From positions 1 through 22,971 of the IMG/VR virus record IMGVR_UViG_3300042445_001036: a stretch of DNA of 22,971 nucleotides, one strand, 5' to 3'. Of the stretch, positions 2,930 through 20,500 are shown one piece after another. The position numbers and the translations under genes are program-made. The first letter of the stretch is position 1. Every line of letters starts with the position of its first letter. The notes under the pieces are model-generated. The model searched no databases. It was not told the origin of the DNA and saw only the letters and a program-made list of their open reading frames with translations. This stretch comes from a virus.

Positions 2930-3523
2930 TCATTCAACTTCTTCCGCTTCGACAACAACGCTTGACCCGCCGTTTGCGGCTTTGGCATTGTTGAGTATTG
3001 AGATATCGATACTCAGACCACCACCGGAATTGCTGCCACCTTTCGGGTTCAGGCCTAGGTTGCGGCGGATTAGCTGGTCAAGCTCGGAAAGTTCACGGAC
3101 AGTCCTAGGCCCTCGGACGTTCATCATGTTGTCGCGTAGCATTTTAATTGCGGACGCAGCCACATAGGCTTGATACTTATCCGAAGGGCTCGCCTGATTC
3201 TCAGCAATCTCCAAGAGGGTTTGCTGCTCTTCGTCACGCGCAGAGAGTCTTGAGTCTTCGACGATAGTCGCAGCGACCTCTTCCAGATTCTTTTGAAAGG
3301 GTTCTTTCTCAGTCTCTGTCGTAGGCGGTGCAACATTAGCAAGCCACCGACAGACCGTGTCAAAACTAATGCCTAGTTCTTCAGCGATGCGAACTTTCTT
3401 CCAGCCCTCTGAAAACAATTGTTTTGCCCTTACAACCCTATCTGCTTTGGCTTGTCTCTTAGTGGCTTCAATCTGAGGGCGGGTTGCCTTTGGTTTTATT
3501 TTCTTCCCGAATATTTTGTGCAC
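2930..3523 (-). CDS. putative terminase small subunit (HTH protein)
   Basis: About 197 aa from a GTG start. After a basic N-terminus, residues about 30-62 form a helix-turn-helix (RAKQLFSEGWKKVRIAEELG then ISFDTVCRWL), the DNA-binding element typical of small terminases and other HTH proteins. The middle is helical and charged, with DKYQAYVAASAIKMLRDNMM suggesting oligomerisation. The C-terminus is Gly/Ser-rich then acidic (VVVEAEEVE), as in subunits that dock a large terminase. It is divergent to and directly beside the large terminase gene, the main reason for the call. No ATG start exists in the frame: GTG at 3523 or TTG at 3562 (210 aa) are the options. A non-terminase HTH regulator remains possible. 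Confidence 0.6.
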   Translation of the reverse strand: MHKIFGKKIKPKATRPQIEATKRQAKADRVVRAKQLFSEGWKKVRIAEELGISFDTVCRWLANVAPPTTETEKEPFQKNLEEVAATIVEDSRLSARDEEQQTLLEIAENQASPSDKYQAYVAASAIKMLRDNMMNVRGPRTVRELSELDQLIRRNLGLNPKGGSNSGGGLSIDISILNNAKAANGGSSVVVEAEEVE

Positions 3524-3592
3524 AACGAGGGAGAGACAAGCGCAAAAACAATTACTTGTCAAACCTTTTTTAATTTAGTAGCCTCCGCTCGT
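3524..3592. promoter_or_regulatory. divergent promoter region between terminase genes
   Basis: The small and large terminase genes point away from each other here, so promoters for one or both are expected. The minus strand has a perfect TTGACA hexamer at 3562-3557, but no good TATAAT lies 16-18 bases downstream. The plus strand has an AT-rich run (CCTTTTTTAATTTAGTAG) at 3564-3581. The location is inferred from gene layout; exact elements are not resolved. Confidence 0.3.
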
Positions 3593-5404
3593 ATGGGCCG
3601 CGCCAAAAAACAAAATCCAGATAAGGTAACTACGTCAGTATTGGAGCCACGAATTGATGCGGTAAGTAAGAAGATGGATGTTGGGGGCTTCCTTATCCCA
3701 ATCACCAGCACGCTCACAGCATGTCTGTGGGGCTTTGCAAACCACTCGTCGCCCAAAGCCCGCGAGTTCTATTTCTGGCGCGTTGCAGACATGCTGTGGA
3801 ACAAGGATGACCTGCCGGAACACATGTTCTTAAGACATCCTTGGGCGGATAAGATCATCCACGAATGTATCAACAACAAATACCTCGCCATCGGGGGTGC
3901 GGCTTCATCCGGCAAATCGCATACCCTTGCCGGATACGGGATCATTAGCTGGCTTGCCGCGCCGAGGGACACGCTTGTGCTAATGACATCTACGACTTTG
4001 CGGGAAGCTCGTAAGCGAGTGTGGGGTTCCGTAATCTCTTTGCTTTCCGTGATTGACGGTGCGCCGATCAATATCCGAGACTCGATTGGTTCCGCCAACT
4101 ACGTTGATGAGAATGGCCAGACCTTCGACCGTGCCGGATTGTCTCTGATCGCGGCGGAAAAAAGCAGGACACGCGAGGCAATCGGAAAGTTCATCGGCCT
4201 TAAGCAAAAACATGTGATCCTAATTGGAGACGAGTTGGGTGAACTCAGCCCCGCCATTAAACAAGCCGCGCTCGCCAACTTGAGCAAGAACCCGCGCTTT
4301 GAATTTAAAGGCGCGAGTAACCCGTCAAGTCGCTTCGACGCGTTCGGGGATTGGAGCACGCCGAAAGATGGGTGGGATTCGATCACGCCCGAAGTGGACG
4401 ACGAGTGGGTTACAAAATGGGGTGGCAAGTATATCCGGCTCGACGGGGAGCGTAGCCCCAACGTATTGGCGGGGCAAACGATCTACCCGTTCTTGCCCAC
4501 GACAGAGAAAATTGAAGAGGACAAAGCCCTTCTAGGCGAAACGAGTAGGGCCTATTACCGAATGGTGCGTGCCGTGTTCTTTGACTCTGATGAGAACGAG
4601 GGTATCTACGGCGAGGCAGAGATGATTAAGTCTGGAGCAACTAAGGTGTGTGAGTTCAGTGGGTCCACAACGCTGATTGCGGGCGTAGATCCGGCCTTCA
4701 CCAACGGGGGTGACCGGACGGTAATGTACACGGCGCGGGTCGGCTCCTTTGCTAATGGGCAATACGGGTTACAGTTTGAGAACTATTACACACTAAATGA
4801 CGACACGGCTAATAAGGCAGTACCGCGTACATACCAAATCGTACATCAAATCCGAGATCGATGTTTGAAATTAGGGATCAAACCGGAAAACGTAGCGATT
4901 GACTCGACGGGAGCGGGCTCACCCTTTTGCGATGTCCTTGCCGGAGAGTGGTCGGACCAGTTCTTGCGTGTGCAATTTGGAGGCAAGCCCTCGGATCGGC
5001 GTGTGAGCATGAACAGCCAGTTAACGGGAGAGGAGCTTTATACCAACCGTGTCTCAGAACTTTGGTTTGTTGGTAAGGAGTTCATGCGGACTCAACAGAT
5101 TTGTGGAATCAATTCGGAATTGGCAAAGGAGATGTGCTCGCGCAGATACGACATGGTGAAATCCGGCACGTTGAAGGTGAAGGTTGAATCCAAGGGAGAA
5201 CTCAAACAAAGGTCAGGCCAGTCGCCCGACATCGCTGACGCGGCGTTCATTGCGCTCGACCTCGCAAGGCAGCGGCACGGACTGGTTGCCGTGGACGCCC
5301 CGAAAAACCGTGAGCAAGGGGTCTTCGGTATGCGACAGCCGCGCACTCTTCGCGATCTCGACGTCGTCAGCAGGTCTAAACACTCACAGATGATATACGA
5401 CTAA
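3593..5404 (+). CDS. terL: terminase large subunit (packaging ATPase/nuclease)
   Basis: A 603-aa DNA-packaging motor. The ATPase domain has Walker A GGAASSGKSHT at 101-111 and Walker B HVILIGDELGE (D213, E214). A coupling motif SN occurs in GASNPSS around 241-246. The RNase H-like nuclease domain has GVDPAFTNGGDRT (D366), VAIDSTGAG (D437) and SPDIADAAFIALD (D546, D549), giving the usual acidic triad. Length fits the family (500-650 aa). The frame is open a further 58 codons upstream, but ATG 3593 opens the first convincing coding stretch (MGRAKKQNPD) and the upstream part lies antisense to the small subunit. After the stop, about 170 bp of AT-rich DNA (5405-5575) separates it from a convergent gene; no strong terminator is seen there. 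Confidence 0.93.
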   Translation: MGRAKKQNPDKVTTSVLEPRIDAVSKKMDVGGFLIPITSTLTACLWGFANHSSPKAREFYFWRVADMLWNKDDLPEHMFLRHPWADKIIHECINNKYLAIGGAASSGKSHTLAGYGIISWLAAPRDTLVLMTSTTLREARKRVWGSVISLLSVIDGAPINIRDSIGSANYVDENGQTFDRAGLSLIAAEKSRTREAIGKFIGLKQKHVILIGDELGELSPAIKQAALANLSKNPRFEFKGASNPSSRFDAFGDWSTPKDGWDSITPEVDDEWVTKWGGKYIRLDGERSPNVLAGQTIYPFLPTTEKIEEDKALLGETSRAYYRMVRAVFFDSDENEGIYGEAEMIKSGATKVCEFSGSTTLIAGVDPAFTNGGDRTVMYTARVGSFANGQYGLQFENYYTLNDDTANKAVPRTYQIVHQIRDRCLKLGIKPENVAIDSTGAGSPFCDVLAGEWSDQFLRVQFGGKPSDRRVSMNSQLTGEELYTNRVSELWFVGKEFMRTQQICGINSELAKEMCSRRYDMVKSGTLKVKVESKGELKQRSGQSPDIADAAFIALDLARQRHGLVAVDAPKNREQGVFGMRQPRTLRDLDVVSRSKHSQMIYD

Positions 5405-5575
5405 ACCATCCAGAATGGACTTTTCTACACGGGAGGAAAATCTGAAGAGTTTCTCAAACTAGTGTAATTCATAATAATTCAATAATTTATGGGTTTCAAA
5501 AAGAAATGAATTAATGAGTTAATATGAATTACCTAAAGGGAAGAATACTTATAGGGTATCTTTTAACGGTATTTG

Positions 5576-5866
5576 TTAGAGCTTGCTGGCCACCTTATCC
5601 CATGCGGGCCAGAAGAGTTCGTCGAGGGCGCGAACGATTGGCTCTTGCTCGTAGTGCTCGCTCCAACTTACGCCCGAGATGAACAGCGCGGCCTCAACCA
5701 TTTCGTGGCGTAGCGTCTCGCGGAGGAGTTTCTTGTCCTTAAGTGTTTCCTTATCTAATTCGATGACTTTTGTCTCAGGCAAATACTGCCCGTAAGCCTC
5801 CCCTCTCAAATCCTTGACGCGGATAGGAATCCTGTATCCTGCAATTTGAACGCTCTTCGGGACCAC
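5576..5866 (-). CDS. small metallopeptidase-like phage protein (HExxE)
   Basis: A 96-aa protein. The core is TLRHEMVEAALFISG followed about 15 residues later by EQEPIVRALDELFWPAW. This resembles the compact zincin-like proteins common in phages, where HExxH sits on one helix and a downstream Glu completes the site. Here the second His is Glu (H54-E55-x-x-E58) with E75 as a possible third ligand, so activity is doubtful or the site is atypical. The only available start is GTG at 5866, just before an in-frame TAG upstream. It is convergent with the terminase and divergent from the next gene, with two bases between start codons. Its codons 9-14 form one arm of an inverted repeat. Confidence 0.6.
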   Translation of the reverse strand: MVPKSVQIAGYRIPIRVKDLRGEAYGQYLPETKVIELDKETLKDKKLLRETLRHEMVEAALFISGVSWSEHYEQEPIVRALDELFWPAWDKVASKL

Positions 5867-5896
5867 TGATGAAGCCTACAGGATTCAGGATACAGG
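5831..5896. repeat. inverted repeat spanning two divergent start codons
   Basis: CCTGTATCCTG at 5831-5841 is exactly matched in reverse complement by CAGGATACAGG at 5886-5896. Each arm is a stack of CAGGATN heptamers: CAGGATACAGGATTCC on the minus strand at left, and CAGGATTCAGGATACAGG on the plus strand at 5879-5896 at right. The arms flank the GTG (5866) and ATG (5869) of the divergent genes almost symmetrically. They could be a repressor operator with both genes as targets, a long hairpin in either transcript, or the trace of an inverted duplication. Confidence 0.5.
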
Positions 5897-6243
5897 GTCC
5901 AGCCCAAAATAAATACTTGCAATTTTGCTTTGAGTGGTGCACGATTCCGTGTGTGTCGATTCAATTCAAAAGAACCCCTGACGGTAAGATTAAATACCGT
6001 GGTGAGCTCTTTGCTGGTTTTAATAAACCCAAGAAGGCACCTGCCGGAGACCCTAAGAAGTACGTGGTGCTTGCTAAGGACGGCTCTAAGGTCGCCAAAG
6101 TCAAGTTCGGGCAACGCGGCTACGAAGACTACTTGCAGCACGGTGACAACAAACGTCGCGCTAATTTTAAATCCCGCATGAATTGCTCCGAATCGAAAGA
6201 CAAGACAACCCCTAAATGGTGGGCTTGCAACTTTAACTGGTAA
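5869..6243 (+). CDS. small basic phage protein (KFGQRGYxDY...KTTPKWWAC type)
   Basis: A 124-aa protein. Its C-terminal half reads KVKFGQRGYEDYLQHGDNKR, then a basic stretch (RANFKSRMNC) and finally KDKTTPKWWACNFNW. This arrangement (KFG...GYxD...HKDxxRRxxFxxRH...TPxxW) matches small uncharacterised proteins common in phages and large DNA viruses (DUF5754-like). The function is unknown; its basic, Trp-rich tail and location at the start of the late region suggest a structural or DNA-associated role. The N-terminal 28 residues are Cys-rich and look less protein-like, so GTG at 5953 is a credible alternative start. Codons 4-9 form one arm of the inverted repeat. The next gene begins 18 bp downstream. 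Confidence 0.6.
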   Translation: MKPTGFRIQGPAQNKYLQFCFEWCTIPCVSIQFKRTPDGKIKYRGELFAGFNKPKKAPAGDPKKYVVLAKDGSKVAKVKFGQRGYEDYLQHGDNKRRANFKSRMNCSESKDKTTPKWWACNFNW

Positions 6244-6261
6244 CTTTAATAATTAAAAACT

Positions 6262-7737
6262 ATGTCTGCGAAAGAAAAAACACCCATTCTAAATAGAGGT
6301 AAAGCATTAAGGGCTTATGAACAACTTCAAGCGGACCAAGCTGTAGCGGAAGAGATTGCAAAGAGCGGTGGTAAGATCCCTAAGACGGGCATGAGCCCCA
6401 CAGGCGTGCCTGAGTACACAATGGGGATGTCCCAAAAGGATAAGTTTTTTTCGGAAGGTCGCGCCCTAGATGCCTCTCAATTAAAAAGATTCGGCGGTGA
6501 TCGTTTTAAAAGCTTTGGTGACAAAGCCGATTTTGAACAGGCAAAAGCAATGCGTAAACTTACGGGCGGTCAGGCTCTATATGATGACCCCTACCAGTTT
6601 GTAGATGATCTTAATAAGTCGCTGGCCGTTGGTGGCACCAGCGCGATCAACTCGCCAGAAGGTCGGCAGCGAGCCGTGGCAGCGGGTGTGCAATCCGGCC
6701 TTTCTTTTGAGGACGCGGACGCCGCTGTCCAAGCGGCATTCAATAAGCTTAAGCAAGTAGGGAAACGGGATAAGGCAGCAAGCCCCGAAGCAGTGGCCGC
6801 TGCTGAGAAAGACAAAGCCGACAAAGCCAAAGCTGCTGCTGATGCTGCCGCTGCGGCGACCGCAGTTAAGAGTGCACCTGCACCCACAACAACAACCCTC
6901 GGTTATGAAGTAGCTAAACCTAAGCCCTCAATAGTTGAGGAGACCATGCCTTATATTGGGGCTGCGACGAAAGGACTTACCGAAGCTCGTCTTTTAGCTG
7001 CAACTCGGGCGGGCAAATCTTTTTTAAACACAGGCGGTATGACTGGTGAGGGGGCCGCAGCTAATGCTAAAGCACTAAACGAAGCAGCCCGCAAAGCTTT
7101 GGGTGCTGAAAAGCGACTTCGTATTTTGGCCCAAGGGGGTAAGGTGACAGCGCAGCAAGCAGACGCAGCGATGGAGGCAACTAAAATAGCTAAGGAGGCA
7201 GCTGAAGAAGCCGCAAAAATGGCTAGGGTTGCAAAGTTTGTTAGCCCCTCTTCTGGTTTAGCTAAGTTTGGCGTCGGCGCACTAAAGGGTGCGGGTAAGA
7301 TCGCCGCGCCCGTCGCCATCGGTATGGAAGTTTATGACGCTGCTAAGTTTATTTTTGACGACGAGGCTCGGGCAGAGATGAGGAAGGAAGCAGAAGAGAA
7401 CGCGAAAGACAGCTTTGACGTCGGAGGCGTCTCTTTATCTGCGACAGGGGCCTTGAAGGGCGCACTTAGCCCTACGAAAACCCTGCTAACTTCAGCGGCG
7501 AACATCAAAGATGCGATCTCATCCAGTAGGAACGCTAGGGAGGCAGAGGCCAATTTACAGACTGCACAAAACAGATACGAAGCTATGGCCGAGGCCCGCC
7601 GTAAAGACTACTCCGACGAAGCATGGAGAGCCCTCTCGCCACCCATAAGAGCTAAGTACCTAGACGACCAGCGTGTGTCGATGGGTGAGAAGCCACTAAA
7701 TAAAAACTACTACAAAAACAAAGCGGAGGGTAAGTAA
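6262..7737 (+). CDS. probable internal virion/ejection protein, 491 aa, Ala/Lys-rich
   Basis: A 491-aa protein with no recognised enzyme motif. Residues about 180-215 are a low-complexity Ala/Lys stretch then Pro/Thr linker (AAADAAAAATAVKSAPAP TTTT). Residues about 285-330 form an amphipathic Ala/Glu/Lys coiled coil (MEATKIAKEAAEEAAKMARV). Residues about 332-367 are a Gly/Ala-rich hydrophobic segment (GLAKFGVGALKGAGKIAAPV) that could enter a membrane. The C-terminus is charged and helical. Such a composition, next to another helical protein and a giant protein in one rightward run, fits phage internal head or DNA-ejection proteins. Start ATG follows an A-rich leader (TAATAATTAAAAACT) without Shine-Dalgarno. 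One base separates its TAA from the next ATG. Confidence 0.7.
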   Translation: MSAKEKTPILNRGKALRAYEQLQADQAVAEEIAKSGGKIPKTGMSPTGVPEYTMGMSQKDKFFSEGRALDASQLKRFGGDRFKSFGDKADFEQAKAMRKLTGGQALYDDPYQFVDDLNKSLAVGGTSAINSPEGRQRAVAAGVQSGLSFEDADAAVQAAFNKLKQVGKRDKAASPEAVAAAEKDKADKAKAAADAAAAATAVKSAPAPTTTTLGYEVAKPKPSIVEETMPYIGAATKGLTEARLLAATRAGKSFLNTGGMTGEGAAANAKALNEAARKALGAEKRLRILAQGGKVTAQQADAAMEATKIAKEAAEEAAKMARVAKFVSPSSGLAKFGVGALKGAGKIAAPVAIGMEVYDAAKFIFDDEARAEMRKEAEENAKDSFDVGGVSLSATGALKGALSPTKTLLTSAANIKDAISSSRNAREAEANLQTAQNRYEAMAEARRKDYSDEAWRALSPPIRAKYLDDQRVSMGEKPLNKNYYKNKAEGK

Positions 7738-8518: not shown

Positions 8519-11500
8519 ATGCTGGAAATTAAATCATACGACGACTGGACAGACACTGAAGAAGAACTTCAAGCCGAGCCCGTTGAAAACTTAAAACGCT
8601 ACGCGAACTATGTCCGATCAGGATATTATAAAGCGGGGATGCTTAACGAGGATAACGAAAAAGAAATTATCTATGGCGTTAAAGAGCGGGCATATAGCGA
8701 CGGTCTTATTACTGACGATATGTCAAAAGAGGAACAAGACTCCTACATTAGTACTATTGTAGGCCCCTCGCAGAATGCCGATGCAAATGCTAGGTTTGTA
8801 CTAGACCACTTACGTACTGGTAGTGAGAGTGGCATTGACCCGAAAGACACCAAAGTATCAACCCTTTCTAGTTATCTAGCATTTAAACAAGCTGCACCAG
8901 ACCAGCCATCTGATTTACAGCCCCTTGTGGATGAACTGCTTTCCGATACGGCTCTTATCAAAAGAGCCAAGATGTCTGCCGTTGATCGTGGAGAATACAG
9001 TGTTGCGGCCATTGATGAAGACGACGGCGGTCGCTCGCTATATACCGGACCAACAGCAAAACCAGATAGCATTAAAGGCGAGGTGGACTCGCTACTTGCA
9101 TCCGGTGCCCTCTCCCCGTCGGATCTATACCGTGTTGATAAAGCGGTTAGCCCCATTAATGGGGGTCTAAGCAACACATCTGAAAACTTCAGATATGAAA
9201 TGTTTCGCCGCACTGTCAGCACACTCGCCAAAACCGATAAAGACCTAGGCGACCTTATTGAATCTTCAGCAAGCAAGACACGCGAGGAAAAACTTGCGGA
9301 GCAGCGCACCACTGGAGAGTCTGTTTGGGAGGGGGTTAAGACGGCGGTTGCCTACCCATTCCTTAAGCTCGCTGATGTCGTAGAGTTCGCGGGGGACTTC
9401 GTAACAGGCGAGGAGGATGTAGCACCAGCATTCAAACCGGAAACCAAAGTCTCCGATGCTCTTGCCGAAAACGACGAAATACGTAAAAAGTTTTCCGCCG
9501 AGGAAATTGAAAAGTTCAGTGCAGACCTAACCACAACGGCAGCGGGAGCACCCTACCGTGCGGATCGGCCTGAGTCGGGGGTCTCATCGGACTCGATGGG
9601 TAACATTATTATTGCACCCCAACTGCTCGCCAACAAACAGATTTTCGAGACAGCCGTTACAGCCGCCCCACTTAATGCTGAACAGCAGACACAAGCCCGC
9701 GCCGAGCGTGAGGTACTACTGACACGAAGCGCACCAGAACTACTGCGGGTTATCCTTGAAGAGGAGCCGGAAGCAGTTGGTGCTCTAGCCAAAGCTAAAG
9801 CTAGTGGACTAAGTAACGAACAATTTATTGAGCAGTGGGTGTCCACCCCCCAAAACTATGACGGGTTTAACGCACGCCTTGAGCAGTTCGGCAAGAGCGC
9901 GTGGAAAACCGTTGCTGAAATCCCTGTGGGGATTGCAGCCCTGAGTGGTAATGAATGGGCGGCAAAATATTTAGGGGGCCTAGCCAAAGATCAAGCTCGT
10001 CGCGAAGAATACTCTCGTCTTTTTGGTGACGAGTTCGGTGTCGGTTTCCAAATTATCAATGCAGTCCCCCAAGTTGCTGCGGATATTGGTCTCACTATTG
10101 GCACAGGTGGTCTTTTTGCTGGGGCGAAGACCCTTGTTAAAACGGCAAGCCTTTCTTCCCGTTCGCTACTACGGGCTTCCACTAAGTTTGCACTATCAAA
10201 TGTTGATGAGGCTGCAACACTAGCCTATAGGGGGGCAGCAGTCGCAGGGGGAGAAGCTAATATTGGCAGCGCAATCCAAAAAATCGGCGCAAGTTTGGCA
10301 ACCAATTTTGCAGAACAAGCTCCTGTATTCACAACTGCCTTTGTCCGGTCTGCTTCTTCTACTTACGGTTCGCTCTACAGTCAGTTACCTGACACGCTGA
10401 GTCACGAAGAAAAGCACAAGAACGCGTTGGGTTACTCTTTGGCTGCTGGCCTCTCTACTGGGGTTATCACTGCTGGCATGGGTTTCTTAGGTCGCGGTGG
10501 TGTTGAAGAAATTGCAACGAAGCGTGTGCGTGCGATGCTTGCGGGCGAGACTGATGAGTCTATACTCGCTTCCGGCGCGAAGGTGGTTCCTGTAGATAAG
10601 ATGAATTATCGTCAGGCTAAACAGGTCTACGAAAACCTGAAGAATGAAAGCCGCATTGTGTCGGATGCTACTTTCCAGAAGGCGATGCGTGGTGCAATTG
10701 GTAGTACATATAAGAACTGGTTACGCACCACACTTAAAGGTGGATTGAACGAGTCTATTGAAGAAGCGATGGATCAAGGAATCCAAATGAAGCTGGAGGA
10801 CGCGTCCCTCGACAAAGAGACACCCTTAGCCCAGAGGGTATCGCAAGTGTTTACCGCAGGTCTTATTGGTGGAACAATGGGCGGGGCGATGGGCGGGGCC
10901 ACGCAGTTCGGTAAAGTTAAAAAATCCGAGATGGCACTGGTCTATGAGGGTCGTGCATCCGCCCTCGACAATGTTGTTAAGGATCTACGCAAAAACAATA
11001 GTGGTGTTACAGCGGACTTCGTGGAGCGCATGATGGATGACGCTCGCGCAAAAGCGAACGCAGCCACTCAAGCAGACGTTCTGGCTCAGACGACCGCAGC
11101 TAAGGCTAAAGAAACAGAAGCAACTGCCAATGTTAAAGAGAAACCTGTCGTGCCTATTGATACGTTCCTACAGGCTTTCTTTGGTAAACCAAAAGAAGCA
11201 GCAGTAGAACAACCGGAAACAACCACCTTCCTAAATGATCTTATTGGCGAGTCTGTTTCTGTTGGGCAGTTTTCAGGGACACTTGAAATGGCTGACGACG
11301 GAGAGAACGTCAGACTCAAATTGGATAAACCCTACAAACAAAAAGGTGGCGATCCAGTTACGCACATGGGCTTGGGGCCTAGGCTACAGAAAGCCGAAGG
11401 TTATATTACTAAGTACCCAACGCTTATGCGTACAGGGGATGATGTGTTCGGGGTAAAAGCAGGCACTCCTTATTTCCTTGTTGGCTCCACTAAAGAAAAG

Positions 11501-14500
11501 TTCGCAGCAAGGCCGCTGGCAGACGGCGTAACAGTAGATGACCGCTTTACAGTTTTGCGCGACGATGAAGGTGTTGTTCGGTCGATCACAATCAAAGATG
11601 CGGTCTCCCTCAAGAATGGCAAGATCTCGATGCCCGTATCATTAACTGGTGCGTTCATCCTTCGTGCCTTTGCAAAGGAGTATGGTATCGATGTGTCAAC
11701 ACAAGCACCAGCCCCTGAAGGACAACAACAGTTCTCCTTCGCTGAAGGAGAAATCAAAGACACCGAACCTACAGTTGAAGAAGAGGCAGCTAAGGGTACT
11801 GAGGGTCAGATGGAGTTTGACCTTGACCGAACACCAGAACAACAAGCTGTGTTTGATCGCTTTGATTCGGAGATTGCAGACCTTAAAGAGAAAATCAAAG
11901 ACCCGAGCATTAACGATGTAAGACGGGAGCGACTTCAAGACCGCTTGAAGGGTCTTCAAAAAGCACGGCGCAATTATGATTCCGAGACAATTCAAATGGG
12001 GGCACTTAGCCCCGATGAACAGGCGCGTTATAACTCCACCGATGTACAGTGGAATGCCGAGCTGGATCTAATCCGTAATGCCTACGATGTTAATCCGAAT
12101 GTGGCGGGAGCGACCAAACGAATCTTGGCCGCTCCACTCCGCAATAAAATTGGTTCCGCTATTGCTTTTGGTGATCTCGACTACGATACGCTTGAAGCCG
12201 TTAGAGATATGGCTAATGAAATTATCTCATTTGCTAACGACGAAGATAATCAAGTGTCTGATAAGATCAGATCGGAAACCCGCAAATACTACAGCAATCT
12301 TCTTAATAGGGTTGACATCGCTCGCGAGTTTATTGACGAGCGCGATATCGATTTGATTAAACAGGAGCTTGAGAACGAGGACTTTAGAGTTACACAACAA
12401 CTCCAAAAACCAGAACCCAAACCCTATCCTGTAACCAACACCCTGCATTACCTGATCTCAAAGGGTAAGCTGAAGACCGTAGATATTGTTGCGGGACTAG
12501 AAGCCGAAGGGGCTGGCGAATCCTTGACAAGGATGACCCTTACAGGATTCAAATATTTCCCAGTAGAGCGTGAGATTGAGTTTACTGATGCCGACGGCAA
12601 TGTAATTTACTTCCCATTGGGCAGTGTTGATGTGTCCTCTAAGGAGATTCAGAAGAAGCTCGCACAGAATGAAGTAAAGGCCAAGGAGTTTATCAAGCAG
12701 GAGAAGCTCGCGGCTAAGGCCACGAACAAAACGCCAGAGCTTGAGCCCGAGTCCGAAGAGGAAGCTGAGCCTGAGGCCCCCCTAGACGAACGCGTCACTG
12801 GCTTTTTAAATCTGGTTAACGACTACGTTAATAAATTTAACGAACTTAATAGTAGGGTCACGCTCCTTAAGAGAAGCAAAACAGATCAGGCACGCGTTAA
12901 AGATGAGCTTAAAGCCCTCCGTGCTGGTGCCAATAATGCTATTAAAGAAGAACTCACTTCTTTGGTCGGAGAAATCAAAAGCCGTAATGACCTACAAGAA
13001 GATCTACGGAGTGAGATGATTGACCAGATCTCGGTGTCCATCTTCGGTAAGGGTGGGTTTACTCCGGTATCAGGAAGTAGGGCACAGTTCGGCAAGATCA
13101 TCGAACCATCACTGGCATTTAAAACTACGGCGGTAGACTATCCAGCTGACAGATTCCGTAGCGGAACACAAGAAGAAGCCCTATTCAATTTGCTTGTTGG
13201 AGCAGGGCAAGTGGTAAACCTACCAACAACGGGTGCAACTATTGCAGCGGCAACTAGTATGTACACTACATCCAATGGACTTATTAAACGACCAGCCTTT
13301 TCTGAGGCTGTTGTAGAACAGGTTACAGAGGAAGGCCAAGAAGTAGCTAGACCAAACTCTTACATTAGGGATAAGAATAATCTGCTTCGTGAGCGCGTCC
13401 ATAAGGCATACCCACCTTTGGGATCAATCCAGTATAAAGCCGAAGGGCCCCAAGGCACAAAGGTAAACCCTAAGTTGGAAGCCCAACTCCGCTCTAAGCA
13501 GGTTGAGTTATCAAACATAAAAACAAAGGCAGAAGCCAAAGGATACGATGCTAGTGATAAGATTGCTGTACTGAGCAAGGAAATTGCTGAGCTAAAGAAA
13601 CAAGTTAAGGATGTTCCTAAGTACAAGATCGGTAGAGATTCTTATGACATGGTTCGTTCTCAGGACGTCACTGACCTATTTTATCCAGTCACTGTATACG
13701 AAATTAATGGTGAGACAAAAACCTTTGGGGTGTTTACCAACGACATTGAAATCACACGCGCACAAATTGCTAGGGGTTTACATATTGTAATACCCCCAAA
13801 CTTCAAAGGAGTCTTAAACCCCGCCATCCATGTAGCTCAAGACGGCGTTACTGTGGACGGGTACTACGAACCACTCAGAGATAGCTTCGTCCCAATGGGG
13901 CAGTTCCGTAGCAAGCTCGACACCCGACGCAACAGCGGGGAAGAGCCTATTGATAAAACTAGGGCTACTAAATACGACGCTCGCGCTGAGTTGCTTGTTA
14001 ATAATATGGTGCCCCCCATGATTAATAGAGACTACGCATCTCGCACATCGGGCCTAATTCAAACCGTATTCGACGGGGCTAAAAGGTTCCTATATTCAAA
14101 CGCCTTCAGCCCAACGCCGGATGCTAAATTACCGCTTACAACTAAAGGGATTGAGGACGCGGCAAGTGACGCGCTCATAGACTTTACCTCTCAGCTTAAT
14201 GAGTTCCTTCTGGCTCGCCACATAGTCACTAAAGTAATCGGCTCCCTTGATTGGAAGAATAAAATCAAGTCGCAAGAAGGACAAGAGTTAATCACAAGAG
14301 CACTAGGAGGTAACAGCAGTGATATTAATTTTAGCGATCTGCCAAAAGAACTTCGTCGTCTCTTGATTAAAGAAGATTCCGGTAATCTTACAGATGCAGT
14401 AAAGGGTACAAACCTTTCTCGCTATGTGAGAGAGATGTTTAACGGTTTGGATGACGCGACCATTGCTAAAAACATTGTCAAAATGGATATTGGTTTTGGC

Positions 14501-17500
14501 GGCGGCGATCCAACTTCCATAATGACAGGTTACGGTATGTACCTGTTTCAGAATGCTACTAGTATTCAGGGTAGTTTCTTTACGGTACCCAACCCTAGAG
14601 AGTATCTCGTAAGGACCAAAGCGATTGGTGACAAAACCGTAAAGGTTCTTGGAAAAGATTTCTCCACAATTGCCAACAAGCACGCAAAGCGTGAAAGAGC
14701 TGAAGCAGAAGAACTCCCCTCAATAAGTATCGACGCTATCGAAGAGGCCTTCGGTGGGGACTTTGAGTTCTCAGAGTTAATTGGTGCTGGCGCAAGGCCG
14801 GATTGGCAGATCCTTTTGGACGCTACCCAACGACAAAAAGAAATGGGCCTATCCCTAAGCGACTATACGGATAATTCTTTCAATGAGCTTTTCGAAATCT
14901 TAGTGTCCGCGAATGGCCATGTGTTCAACGACCGAGGTTCTATGCTCGCTTCCGAGCTAATGGCCGCTGTCAAAGGTGATAAAGAACTAGGAAAGACGTT
15001 TAGGGACATTGCGAAAATGGTTGGGTTGGATACCCCAGCAGAACTCGCAAAGATATCAGATGAGTTTCTTATTAATGTGTTGTCAAAGAAAATTAGTGAC
15101 GATGCATTGTTCAAGACTAATAATGGGTATGCTGGTATCGTCATGTCCCAGTTGTCTGAAACAGAAGTGGGGCAGAGAGCAGCGGGTCTTATGATTCTGA
15201 AGGGCTGGCTACCCCCTGTAATGATCGAAGGTAAACGAGTTCCTCTGCGTGCGCCCGCCGAGCGTATAAGTAAAGCACCAGCGGCACCACCAACCCCACC
15301 TAACGCGTCCCCAGTCGGATTCGTTATTAGAGAGAAAGCTAAAGAAGTTAGTGCTGCCGAAGCTACGGGTGGGTATGTTACCACAATTGAAGAAGCGGAA
15401 GCCTACGAGGCTAACAAGAACGTAGCTCTAGCTAGGGTTGCGGATACTATTGTCAAGCTGGGAGAAGAGAAAGCTATTGCACTTCAGACTATTGAAGAGG
15501 CGCGTAATCACATTTCCAGTGGGTTCAAAATGCTAAAGGCTGTCATCCAACCTGAAGCAGGAGAGAACGTACTTGAGCTAGCAAAGAATGATTTCTGGAC
15601 TAATAGTGCAACGGTGAGTAGTGTTATTTCTGACTTCACTAGAGAGCAAATAGCCACAATTGCTGATGAAATTAGTTCCCTAGAGGTTAAACTTTCCAAC
15701 TACGAGAAGCTACAAAAAGCTGGGCAGAAGGGACGCAATAAAGATCTGTCAAGAATTGACAGACAAATTAAAAAATACGTTAAAGCACTAGCCGACCCGC
15801 GCCTTCCTGATGACTCAGATGAAAAAACAATCTTTAGTCAAAAGTACGACGAGTTGAATAGCTTGAAGTATCATATTACCTTCAATGGCCAATTCGTTAT
15901 TGATGGTTTGAATAGCTCTATTTCACTTAAGCAAAAGGAGATTGATCGTATCAATAAAGCTGTTGGCAACGGAGCCACGGTGCTTGACAATGTGATTAAC
16001 GATATTGAATCTAGCCTGCAACAGCTTAATGATAATCGTGATTACATTAGTAGACTTTCGGACAAGTCTAAAAGTGTTGTTGACAACGAGATCAAGCACG
16101 TTGAGTATTTAATGGGGCTTCCTGAATGGAAGAGCCTTGCCGTCGCTACCGCTAATCATCCTGCTGCCCTTAAGTTTAAAGCGGATCTTACATTAGAGCA
16201 GCGGAGCCGAGTTGATAAATACAATACGTCACTTAAGGTTAAGCAAGACTATGACGCTTTCGCTGCACAACAAAAAGAAAACCTTCGTGCGGCTTTGGTT
16301 GCAAACGGTGTTGGCGTATTTAACTCTGGCCTACTTACAACATACGTAGATCCTGTTGACGTTGTTCGTCCTGAGTTCTTTGAGGAGGAGACCACACCGA
16401 GACCACAAGCAGAAATTGATGAGAGCGTACGTCTATTTGCTCAGGCTATCTCACCCGCCCGCCCCACTAATCGGAAGTCAATTGACTTCGCTCTGTCCAC
16501 CCTCGACCCCTCGCTCAGGGAAGCTGCCCGTCAGGAGAACACAAGGATGATGAATGATTTGGGTCTCGTATCGGGAGACTCTGACAGTATCCTTAGAGCA
16601 CTATCCGTGTTGAGCAATAGGGGTACAGCACAACAGCAAGCCATCGTATCGATCCTGAGTGCAGCACCCGACCTCATTCGTTCGGTAAACATCGGCATTG
16701 TTGATATGCAAGCGGGCTTTGCGGGTCTATATGACAAGTCCAATAACACGATTCTACTCAACCTTAGTGAGCACAACGGGCGCGGCCTTGCCGACGTATT
16801 GCTACACGAACTGATTCATGCTGCCACTGTTCGGGTTATTAACAACCCAACGACAGCACAGCAACGTGTGGCGGTGCAACGTCTTGAACAGATCCGCAAC
16901 TTCGCATTGGCCGCTGCCGTGAAGAAAGGAACTGATACTGACCCGACTATGCAGTTGGGTCTGTCCACTGTAGAAGAGTTTGTCACGTATGCACTTACTG
17001 CGCCGGAATTCATGTCGCTCCTTAATGGTCTTACCAAACCACAAGAGCGCACGATCATTCGCCGTATGATTGATGCAGTCCTTTCGATCTTTGGCTTTGA
17101 ACCGAAGTCGAGACAGCAGACCTCCAACGCAATTGATGAGCTTCTTGACTTCACGAAGATGTCACTCGCTCACTCCAACACGTTCAACATGGACGCACGT
17201 TGGGCAAGCACGCTACGAAACGAGCCGTCGGAGAATGCCAAGGCATCGAACATTACGCGACTCAGGTCTGCTGAGAAGGTTAACCAAACGCTCCGTAATG
17301 TAGCGGAAGATAGTGACAACGTCCTCTTCGCCACTACATCATTCGATAGGGAATACCTTGCAGCAGTAGAGGCTGGTAATATGGAGACGGCACAGCGGAT
17401 GGTGGATGAGGCGGCGCGGGCGGCGTGGTACAATCTTCGCGGAGCAAGGTCGGGCTTCTACGCCAACGGAGTTCCCACAACCCCGGAAAGTTCCGCCAAC

Positions 17501-20500
17501 CTTGGATCTGGCTATTACGCCGCGTTGGATGCGCCCCTGTCGTCGATAGCTTCATACGGATCTTCCCCCAGATGGAAGGGTATTGACGCAAGATACGGAA
17601 CTTCCGTTGATAGGATCACGGGGGAGGTTTTTATCAAGTCTGAAAATCCGCTTGAGTTGGCCCATCCGGGAGATGTTGTTCAAGTCATTAAAGACATGGG
17701 CCTTGAAGAATCGTTTTTGAAATGGGGCGAGCACCAAGCGGCGGTCAACAAGGCATACCAAACGATTGGATCGACCCGCCCGAGGTCAGATACCGCCTCC
17801 AGAGGAGGCGGGATTTTTGAGGATAACCCGATTCAGCGGGAGCAGCAGATTTCAGCGATGCTCGAAGCTGGGTGGACAGAAAGAGACATTGATGCGGCTG
17901 GGTTGAGAAAACCAGCCCCTGTTTTCAGGGATTCCGGGAAGATGTTCAGCTACCTGCTTGAAGAGCGGATTTTCGACTCCATCATCATTGACTGGGACAA
18001 GGCGGCGAAGAAAGGAATGGCCAGCGGAGACGGCAGGACGGGAAGGGAAATCGCGGTTCGGGACCCATCCCAAATCAAATCCGCCGAGCCTGTCACCTAC
18101 GACAACAACGGGAATGTGATCCCTCTCTCGCAACGCTTCAACCTAAACTCTAACGACATCCGCTACGTCAGAGGCAGCGAGGGCCAAGGGCAAGGAACCG
18201 TAGATGCAATCAGTGAGATCCAACGCATCTTGCCTGAGGGTATCACGCTTGAGTTTGACAACACAATGTTGGGTCAGTTGGGCGCACGACGCACCAGACC
18301 TAATTCAATTATCGTGAACCCAGATACGGTCAACGATCTTGTATACAACCTGACTCCCGCTAACGCACGCTCTGCCGTACGCACATTCGTTGACGAAGAG
18401 CTAGCGCACTTAGCATCATACAGGACTTTCACCGAAGACGACTTCGTAAGTATCGCAGCAGGCATGGGTGAGAGTATGCGTAACCTTGTTGCGGATATGC
18501 TCTACTCTAACTCGGAGTCTGACTTCGCGAAACGTCAGGCAATGATCGCCGCTGATCTGGAATCAGGAGCGTTGAGGGAGTCCGACATCGCCGCCGAATG
18601 GGTACGCTCCGAGATGACACGCATCGCTGTCGGTCGTTCGCGTGAGGAGCATCTCGCGTTCCTTCGCACGAACCCATCGTTGCTCGCCAAATTTATCGAA
18701 GCGGTACAGGCGTTCATCACTAAGCTAAAAGCTCAGTTCACTACTAATCCTACGGCAAGCACCGCCGCTAAGATCTCAATGGCATCACGCCAGTTCCGCT
18801 CATTGCGTAACGGTGGCGTGCTCCCTGTGCCTGAAGCATCAACGGCAGGCGAGATGGGCGACGTAACGCACTTCATCAATGCCGTCGAAGGCAACGTCGT
18901 TGAGGGACAGGAGGATCGCACCCAATTCGATCTGCCTATTGCGTCCACCAACCCGTCGAAGGTCGCCGCCTTCTGGGAGAAAGCAAAACAAAAGATGTAT
19001 GATATGCCCCTTGAGTTACGTAAATACGTAAGTCAACGCGACGGCACAATATCAAACATTGAGTATACAATGTGGGACTTTGCCAAGAAGTATCCCAAGC
19101 TAAGGGACGCGGCACTCAATGCGGGTGTTGCTATTGACGACATCGGAACCATCTTAGGTACTACTGCTCCTGCTGTACAAGGCGAGGCACGCAAGGAACT
19201 GCAACGTCAAGTGCGCCAGTTCAAAGCGGACAATGCTGAAGACCCAAATCTTGAGCGGATGGCCGAAGACTATGAGGAGAAACTCACCCAACCAATTGCT
19301 GACCAGTTCTATGCGGAGTTCCGCAAGAACCAGAAAGTTGTAGAGGATCAGCTTAGGGCCAAAGGATTTAGTGCGTTAGTAGATTACCTCGTTGAGTTCC
19401 GCCAAGAAATCAATAAGGTAAAAGCTATCATTAATTTTGATGACACCAATGATGTGTACCTCACACGTACCTTCAGCTACTTCACAACAGAGGGCTGGTC
19501 ACTGGCCGCGAAGAGTGGTGGAGTCATCGAAATTGATGGCAAGACCGTTGACTTCAGTAAGCTACGCGCCGCTGCTGCTACTCACTTTGAGTGGGAGGTT
19601 CTTAACGACGCAAAGAACGAAGGTCAGACGTTGACTGAAGATCAAGTTGCACGCAAGACCCTTGAGGCCCTAGACAAGTACTTGATTAAGCTCGATACCG
19701 AAGCTAAGCAATCGAAGGAAAGCGGCACGATGAACACGATCAAGCGTGATGTTAATCGCTTACTCCGCAAGAAAGACTTCGACGAACCCCTTCGTGAACT
19801 CTTAGGTGAGGTAACCGACCCGTTTGAGAACGCAGTGCGTACTATCTATAGTGTCGGACGACTCGCCGCCAACGATAGGTTCCTTCGTGGCTTTGCAAGG
19901 CAAGCCATTAAATCTGAACTCGCGAGCAAGGAACCGAAGGATGGGATGGTGCTACTGTTTCCCCCCAGTGAGAACGCGGAGCTAGGTGACCTCGCTGGAC
20001 TATACGTTCGTAGTGATGTAGCCGCCGCCATCAGACAAGAACTCGGACCAAAGAACAGGGACCAAGAAGCCCGCTCTATGGAGATAATGAATAACTTTGG
20101 CCGAATGATGTCTAAGGTATCCGGCGTGTCCGTAGTAACGCAGACCCTAGGTTCTGTTGGTTTCTATCCTCGTAACATCTTAGGTGGTATGGCCCTCTCT
20201 ACTGCTCAAGGAATCATCAACCCCATCTACATGAGGGAGGCAGCAAAACTTGCCATCAGAGCAAACCTACTGGCCTCGGACTCTCAAGAAACACGGGACG
20301 CTATCCGAAGGCTGACCGAACTTCAGATCGTGCGCGATGAAACTCGCGGGCGTATGGCAATGGATATGTTCCGTGGATTTGCGGCCACTACTGATGAGCA
20401 ACTTGAGGAACTACTTAATGATATTGTGGAGGCGCAGGCTTCCGGTAACATTGACAAGATTGCCAAGAAGCTAAACATCAAGAAGGAAGTTCTTAGCAAG

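Follow-up and report, generated by a model that had tools for sequence, protein, structure and literature searches.

The divergent genes and their start codons

The DNA analysed belongs to an uncultivated phage (virus record IMGVR_UViG_3300042445_001036; 22,971 bases, all of which is referred to here as the window), and over half of it is taken up by a single open reading frame of 4,446 aa (8519-21859). At the locus of interest two genes are divergently arranged. On the minus strand, positions 5576-5866 encode a 96-aa SprT/gluzincin-like metallopeptidase with the motif RHEMVEA, which matched PF10263 at an E-value of 0.001, below the curated cut-off; none of 50,697 phage records gave a match to it. 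Its GTG at 5866 comes first among the start codons that follow an in-frame stop, and is a plausible start. On the plus strand lies a DUF5754/phrog_7595-like gene, for which homologs and codon usage place the true start at GTG 5953 (5953-6243), within a longer open reading frame beginning at ATG 5869. Both genes were found together in 75 sources; in two of these (L054 and L055) they are not divergent, and the remaining 73 reduce to 24 distinct junctions, many contigs being present twice. A close relative of the window, the 61-kb record G001 (the record of loci L004 and L083), encodes a plus protein 100% identical and a minus protein 99% identical to those of the window.

An earlier sequence-only reading of this DNA had placed two divergent start codons, GTG 5866 and ATG 5869, two bases apart, and had named incorrect starts as one possible explanation. 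The 28 codons preceding GTG 5953 were surveyed for stops across 81 loci with a match to the plus gene, 58 of them distinct with the window included. Between the positions of ATG 5869 and GTG 5953 an in-frame stop occurred in 47/58 distinct loci, including relatives 79-89% identical, and none occurred in the other 11/58, which include the window itself and L003 and L005, the loci most closely related to it; because homology does not extend upstream of the gene in the distant homologs, stops there show only that the gene begins nearby. At locus L009 a TGA immediately precedes the GTG. A start codon is present at the 5953 position in all 19 aligned rows (18 GTG and one ATG), and a gene caller based on codon usage selected 5953 unprompted. 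The conserved GTG and the upstream stops together indicate that the plus gene starts at 5953, and the stops in the 47 loci rule out ATG 5869. Thus one member of the proposed pair of starts, GTG 5866, stands as plausible and the other does not, the 28-residue N-terminal extension (5869-5952, plus strand) is spurious and non-coding, and the divergent intergenic region, taken to hold the promoters, measures 86 bp (5867-5952) rather than 2. The suggestion of an incorrect start was therefore right for the plus gene. The same reading had set two observations against itself: homologs starting downstream at GTG 5953, which is what the homolog comparison found, and a repeat without conservation, which was not borne out, the heptamers being conserved in related junctions.

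Heptamers and inverted repeat at the junction

CAGGAT heptamers occur on the minus strand at 5829-5834 and 5836-5841 and on the plus strand at 5879-5884 and 5886-5891, and a third, degenerate copy (CAGGGT, 5893-5898) follows the plus-strand pair. The two tandem heptamers on the minus strand form the left arm (CAGGATACAGGAT, 5829-5841), within codons 9-13 of the minus gene, and the right arm (CAGGATT CAGGATA CAGGGT, 5879-5898, plus strand) covers the spacer of the proposed minus promoter. The exact 11-bp inverted repeat with CAGGATN heptamers that had been claimed here is present at 5831-5841/5886-5896, spanning 5831-5896 with 44 nt between the arms. Of the peptides that had been assigned to the two arms, AGYRIP is indeed what the left arm encodes in the minus open reading frame; TGFRIQ is not a real peptide, since ATG 5869 is not a start.

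Taken alone, the inverted repeat is weak evidence, because an 11-bp inverted repeat with arms 3-60 nt apart was seen in 21/100 dinucleotide shuffles and another such repeat lies in the window at 3716-3797; as strong evidence by itself it was ruled out by the shuffles. Lone CAGGAT hexamers showed no enrichment across the window, with 12 occurrences versus an expected 10.1. The tandem heptamers are nevertheless not a product of chance, as exact tandem dimers (CAGGATNCAGGAT) occur twice in the window versus none in 200 shuffles. The same 11-mer arms were found again at two other intergenic sites.

Proposed divergent promoters

Conserved hexamers stand at near-fixed distances from both starts. On the minus strand, a -35 element is proposed from its alignment position (TGGACC, 5896-5901, a weak consensus match), together with a -10 element (TAGGCT, 5873-5878) 6 nt before GTG 5866. 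On the plus strand, the proposed -35 element (TTGCAA, 5917-5922) is preceded by the A/T-rich AAAATAAATA, and the proposed -10 element (CACGAT, 5940-5945) lies 7 nt before GTG 5953. Among the aligned rows of the plus side, CANNAT is found 7 nt before the start in 18/19 and 6 nt before it in L041, with a TTG box (read by eye) 16-17 nt above CANNAT and an A-rich stretch before that. The minus-side pattern of TGGAC, TGTAC or TCGAC, a gap of 16-17 nt, TAnnnT and 6-9 nt to the start was detected by script in 18/22 rows; three further rows (L015, L022 and L030) fit by eye and L041 is weak. These hexamers are retained in L109, L113 and L127, members of a clade without heptamers.

The minus -35 element shares only 3-4 of its 6 bases with TTGACA, and a consensus promoter scan of 5400-6270 reported neither of the proposed promoters, a good sigma-70 consensus not being reached, so that the promoter claim rests on conservation. 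Across the aligned rows the -10 box lies a conserved 6-9 nt before the start codon, the placement sought in a leaderless pair, and this spacing suggests that both genes may produce leaderless transcripts and that 5867-5952 may consist of two leaderless sigma-70-like promoters, back to back. A stretch resembling that of the plus promoter by eye, AATTACTTGTCA (AATTACTTG), was also observed in the divergent gap at 3524-3592, between a terminase-small-like gene and the gene for the terminase large subunit.

Upstream regions in the phage group are A-rich. Shine-Dalgarno-like words were rare before genes that have 40 bp or more of upstream space (1.4% of 280, control 3.2%) and commoner than in the control before genes lying close behind another (12.4% of 209, control 7.2%). 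A-rich upstream regions with rare Shine-Dalgarno-like words resemble those of Bacteroidota, as described in PMC6847099. The cultured relatives of TerL (three records, 24-28% identity) and those of the DNA polymerase of a related phage (all under 60%) are too distant to indicate a host.

The heptamer family across the phage group

The search for CAGGATN elsewhere that the sequence-only reading had proposed was made as a census of dimers in 12 related phage records, with one mismatch allowed and the reversed pattern as control, and returned 107 dimers versus 2 for the reversed pattern; these records were selected for carrying the junction genes and some are close kin, so that the counts are not independent. 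Dimers were present in 11/12 records, G006 having none, and 79/107 lay outside the genes called by a simple gene caller versus 25.7 expected, an expectation that is inflated because the caller cut the giant open reading frame at piece borders. Among intergenic runs with a lag of 7, 34/90 contain a CAGGNT core. The remaining 56, a few of which are near variants of the CAGGATN unit, are comparable in number to the runs at lags 5, 6, 8 and 10 (50, 71, 54 and 44), and intergenic DNA shows no clear excess of any other heptamer. The period-7 excess is thus essentially CAGGNT, which points to a specific sequence and shows that generic slippage with a period of 7 is not a sufficient explanation.

All 13 clusters of mixed orientation in the related records run CCTG...CAGG, and none run in the reverse order. 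Five are at this junction, three at a place termed site B, four at site C and one elsewhere, so that the 13 amount to three orthologous places plus one. Site C, at G001 31682-32003, is a divergent gap that has orthologous counterparts in nine further records; a conserved GCTACGGGTGG element is followed there by an A-rich stretch and a TTGAC-like promoter, both read by eye. All 10 records examined had dimers of the heptamer in this gap (10 or more of 12 positions matching), the reversed control occurring in none and both orientations in 7/10, with the position of the dimer varying between gaps; a loss of the heptamers in G002 and G011 was ruled out by dimers elsewhere in those gaps. Site B is a heptamer hairpin with a conserved loop (AAGGGTTGGACTT) between tandem genes, found in 7/11 records (G004 7005-7043, G005 28635-28671, G002 50558-50594 and G008 3284-3322, and near G007 10039, G009 29356 and G011 10008). 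Its 13-base arms pair in full only in G004, the other six records pairing at 10-12 of 13 positions, and the exact loop with one arm was found in nine viral stretches.

Triple heptamers were found in 44 viral stretches and in at least 119 bacterial stretches, the latter spread over so many phyla that no host is indicated. Three further features were observed in the related records. A second heptamer-like array (GGATTAT/GGTTCAT) adjoins the CAGGATN array at L305 (G002 near 50.5 kb); a perfect hairpin with 16-bp arms, perhaps a terminator, lies between two minus genes at G001 56397-56435; and the 340-aa product of G001 28406-29428 has a gamma-glutamyl cyclotransferase domain at its C-terminal end and weakly matches glutamine amidotransferase.

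The coding arm and the upstream array

Across 31 representatives of the minus gene, an upstream array was scored as present at 10 or more of 12 matches, a cut-off picked after the scores had been seen. By this measure the array is present in 20/31 representatives, spanning about 60-100% protein identity, with the reversed control reaching at most 9 and the other 11 representatives at most 8. The coding arm likewise scored at least 10 in 19/20 representatives with an upstream array, the exception being L032, versus 0/11 without one. Those 11 comprise one clade (L109, L110, L113 and L127; support 93/85), nested beside the heptamer-bearing L026/L040, plus outgroups, so that the association between arm and array amounts to 2-3 evolutionary changes, over which it is not significant (sign test, p 0.5).

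The right array lies in the minus promoter spacer in the clade of the window and upstream of the -35 element in the clade of L025, L027 and L037, and the left arm stays fixed in codons 9-13 while the upstream array changes place between clades. Comparison of own with cross-row pairing at the junction found no covariation of the arms (p = 0.15). Arg12 is encoded by AGG in 16/17 rows with arginine at this position versus 7/69 at four other arginine columns. A bias of the YRI codon context was considered as the source of this AGG and rejected, there being no strong bias: AGG was used for arginine between Y/F/H/C and Ile in 5/30 contexts versus 12.4% elsewhere. A GxKI motif is present in the outgroup coding arms already, written in similar codons, and a single change from AAG, an ancestral lysine codon, could have given the AGG of Arg12. 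The Arg12 codon stands out, but synonymous constraint over codons 9-14 was not significant (P = 0.52).

A proposed operator-like site and its alternatives

The anatomy of the locus, comprising the corrected start, the divergent promoter region and the heptamer family, is well supported, and the site is best read as a phage representative of the intergenic heptanucleotide repeat class, probably operator-like. The most likely mechanism is that the divergent promoter region (5867-5952) serves the small metallopeptidase gene on the minus strand and the DUF5754-like gene on the plus strand, each of which would have its own sigma-70-like promoter with transcription starting at or next to the start codon. 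The CAGGATN array spans the spacer of the proposed minus promoter and the opposite-facing dimer lies in codons 9-13 of the minus gene, so that the expected start of its transcription falls between the two heptamer sets. A DNA-binding protein of the phage or the host may then recognise the heptamers, its occupancy hindering RNA polymerase at the minus promoter, and tandem duplication may keep the number and place of the heptamers turning over. The repeat, its recurrence, the corrected start and the conserved hexamers at near-fixed distances are shown by the sequences; active promoters, leaderless transcripts, a bound protein and repression are what we infer from this arrangement. The retention of sites beside the promoter across relatives (20/31 representatives, and 10/10 gaps at site C) is consistent with an operator of the metallopeptidase promoter, a reading that is held tentatively, at slightly short of an even chance. 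The earlier suggestion of an operator within coding DNA is possible in this form, but only the left arm lies in coding DNA. Family searches of ten G001 genes around other heptamer sites named no regulator, and binding of the CsrA type was considered and dropped, as sites are found on either strand and within stems. A wider claim, in which a genome-wide regulon of this phage group has inverted CAGGATN arrays as its operators, with a single regulator reading 7-bp direct repeats in opposing pairs and with pairs in promoters and first codons timing the expression of divergent gene blocks, is considered unlikely.

The close rival to an operator is that these are unselected short tandem repeats, with polymerase slippage driving their turnover in intergenic DNA, promoters included, while the left arm is no more than the codons for the conserved GYRIP peptide and the inverted repeat a coincidence. 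This explanation is judged somewhat less likely than an operator. It is in keeping with the array of L032, which in one clear case has 21 bp (three heptamer lengths) more than that of L027, with a G003 array that runs to some seven units in register, with the shifting of arrays within orthologous gaps both at this junction and at site C, and with the occurrence of the same arrays in many bacterial phyla; the lack of arm covariation and of significant synonymous constraint, and the frequency of 11-bp inverted repeats in shuffled sequence, also fit. However, unselected turnover does not readily account for upstream heptamers that score 10 or more of 12 across 20 representatives of such divergent identity when the reversed control reaches at most 9, nor for the lack of a clear excess of any other heptamer, and the coding arm tracks the upstream array, though over few independent changes. 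The dimers in all gaps at site C slightly raise the standing of an operator and slightly lower that of unselected turnover.

Two further explanations relate to the arms as a pair. The sequence-only reading had offered inverted duplication, and such an event, or template-switch repair, could have made the arms and could maintain them as a palindrome, as the exact 11-bp arms in several members, the variant GGAAACAGGAT in both arms of L041 and the pairing of the site B arms of G002 and G004 (12 and 13 of 13) despite a differing seventh base might indicate. This is nonetheless improbable, as own arms pair no better than cross-row arms at the junction, GxKI codons were already in place in the outgroup coding arms, the array shifts relative to a fixed coding arm, and full pairing at site B is confined to one record in seven. 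Least probable is an RNA-level element, either a hairpin or a translational operator, in a transcript through the region: the arms could pair in a transcript begun upstream, and a role in translation has been proposed for other heptamer repeats in PMC4679880, but the proposed minus start site leaves the right arm out of the mRNA, the proposed plus promoter is downstream of both arms, and arm covariation is again lacking.

Comparison with known repeat systems

These results add phages to the bacteria known for sequence-specific intergenic heptamer repeats; they correct a gene start and indicate a conserved, apparently leaderless divergent promoter pair in a phage group; and phages with arrays of differing copy number and place at a single orthologous promoter offer a natural series for testing heptamer function. 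CAGGATN-type strings and such repeats in phages were not found among the open-licence PMC papers searched, in which the heptamer-repeat work mentioning a phage genome concerned Haemophilus. Among phage regulatory sites, operators of the lambda OR type combine divergent promoters with repeated sites overlapping the promoter core. The junction resembles these in having divergent promoters with repeated sites over the promoter core, but its sites are contiguous 7-bp direct repeats rather than spaced palindromes, and no repressor gene was identified alongside. In the hmwA promoters of Haemophilus influenzae, the copy number of 7-bp tandem repeats generally correlates with transcript level, according to PMC2424069. 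Heptanucleotide tandem repeats inside a promoter region are common to both, whereas the CAGGATN array is degenerate, low in copy number and provided with an inverted partner, with no evidence of phase variation.

Families of intergenic heptanucleotide repeats in bacteria include the cyanobacterial STRR. Direct repeats of TAACTGA in Beggiatoaceae, for which related heptamers are rare and 7-nt indels are described, feature in PMC4679880, and GGGNATC repeats of Xanthomonas and Nostoc in PMC4692102. CAGGATN shares with the bacterial repeats a 7-bp unit, short arrays, a mostly intergenic location and a scattered distribution. It differs in its unit, its presence in phage contigs, its frequent occurrence as inverted pairs and the placement of one arm in coding DNA; moreover, it here overlies a divergent promoter, whereas GGGNATC is reported in PMC4692102 to be under-represented between divergent ORFs. 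The distinctive trait of the phage CAGGATN family is its inverted pairing.
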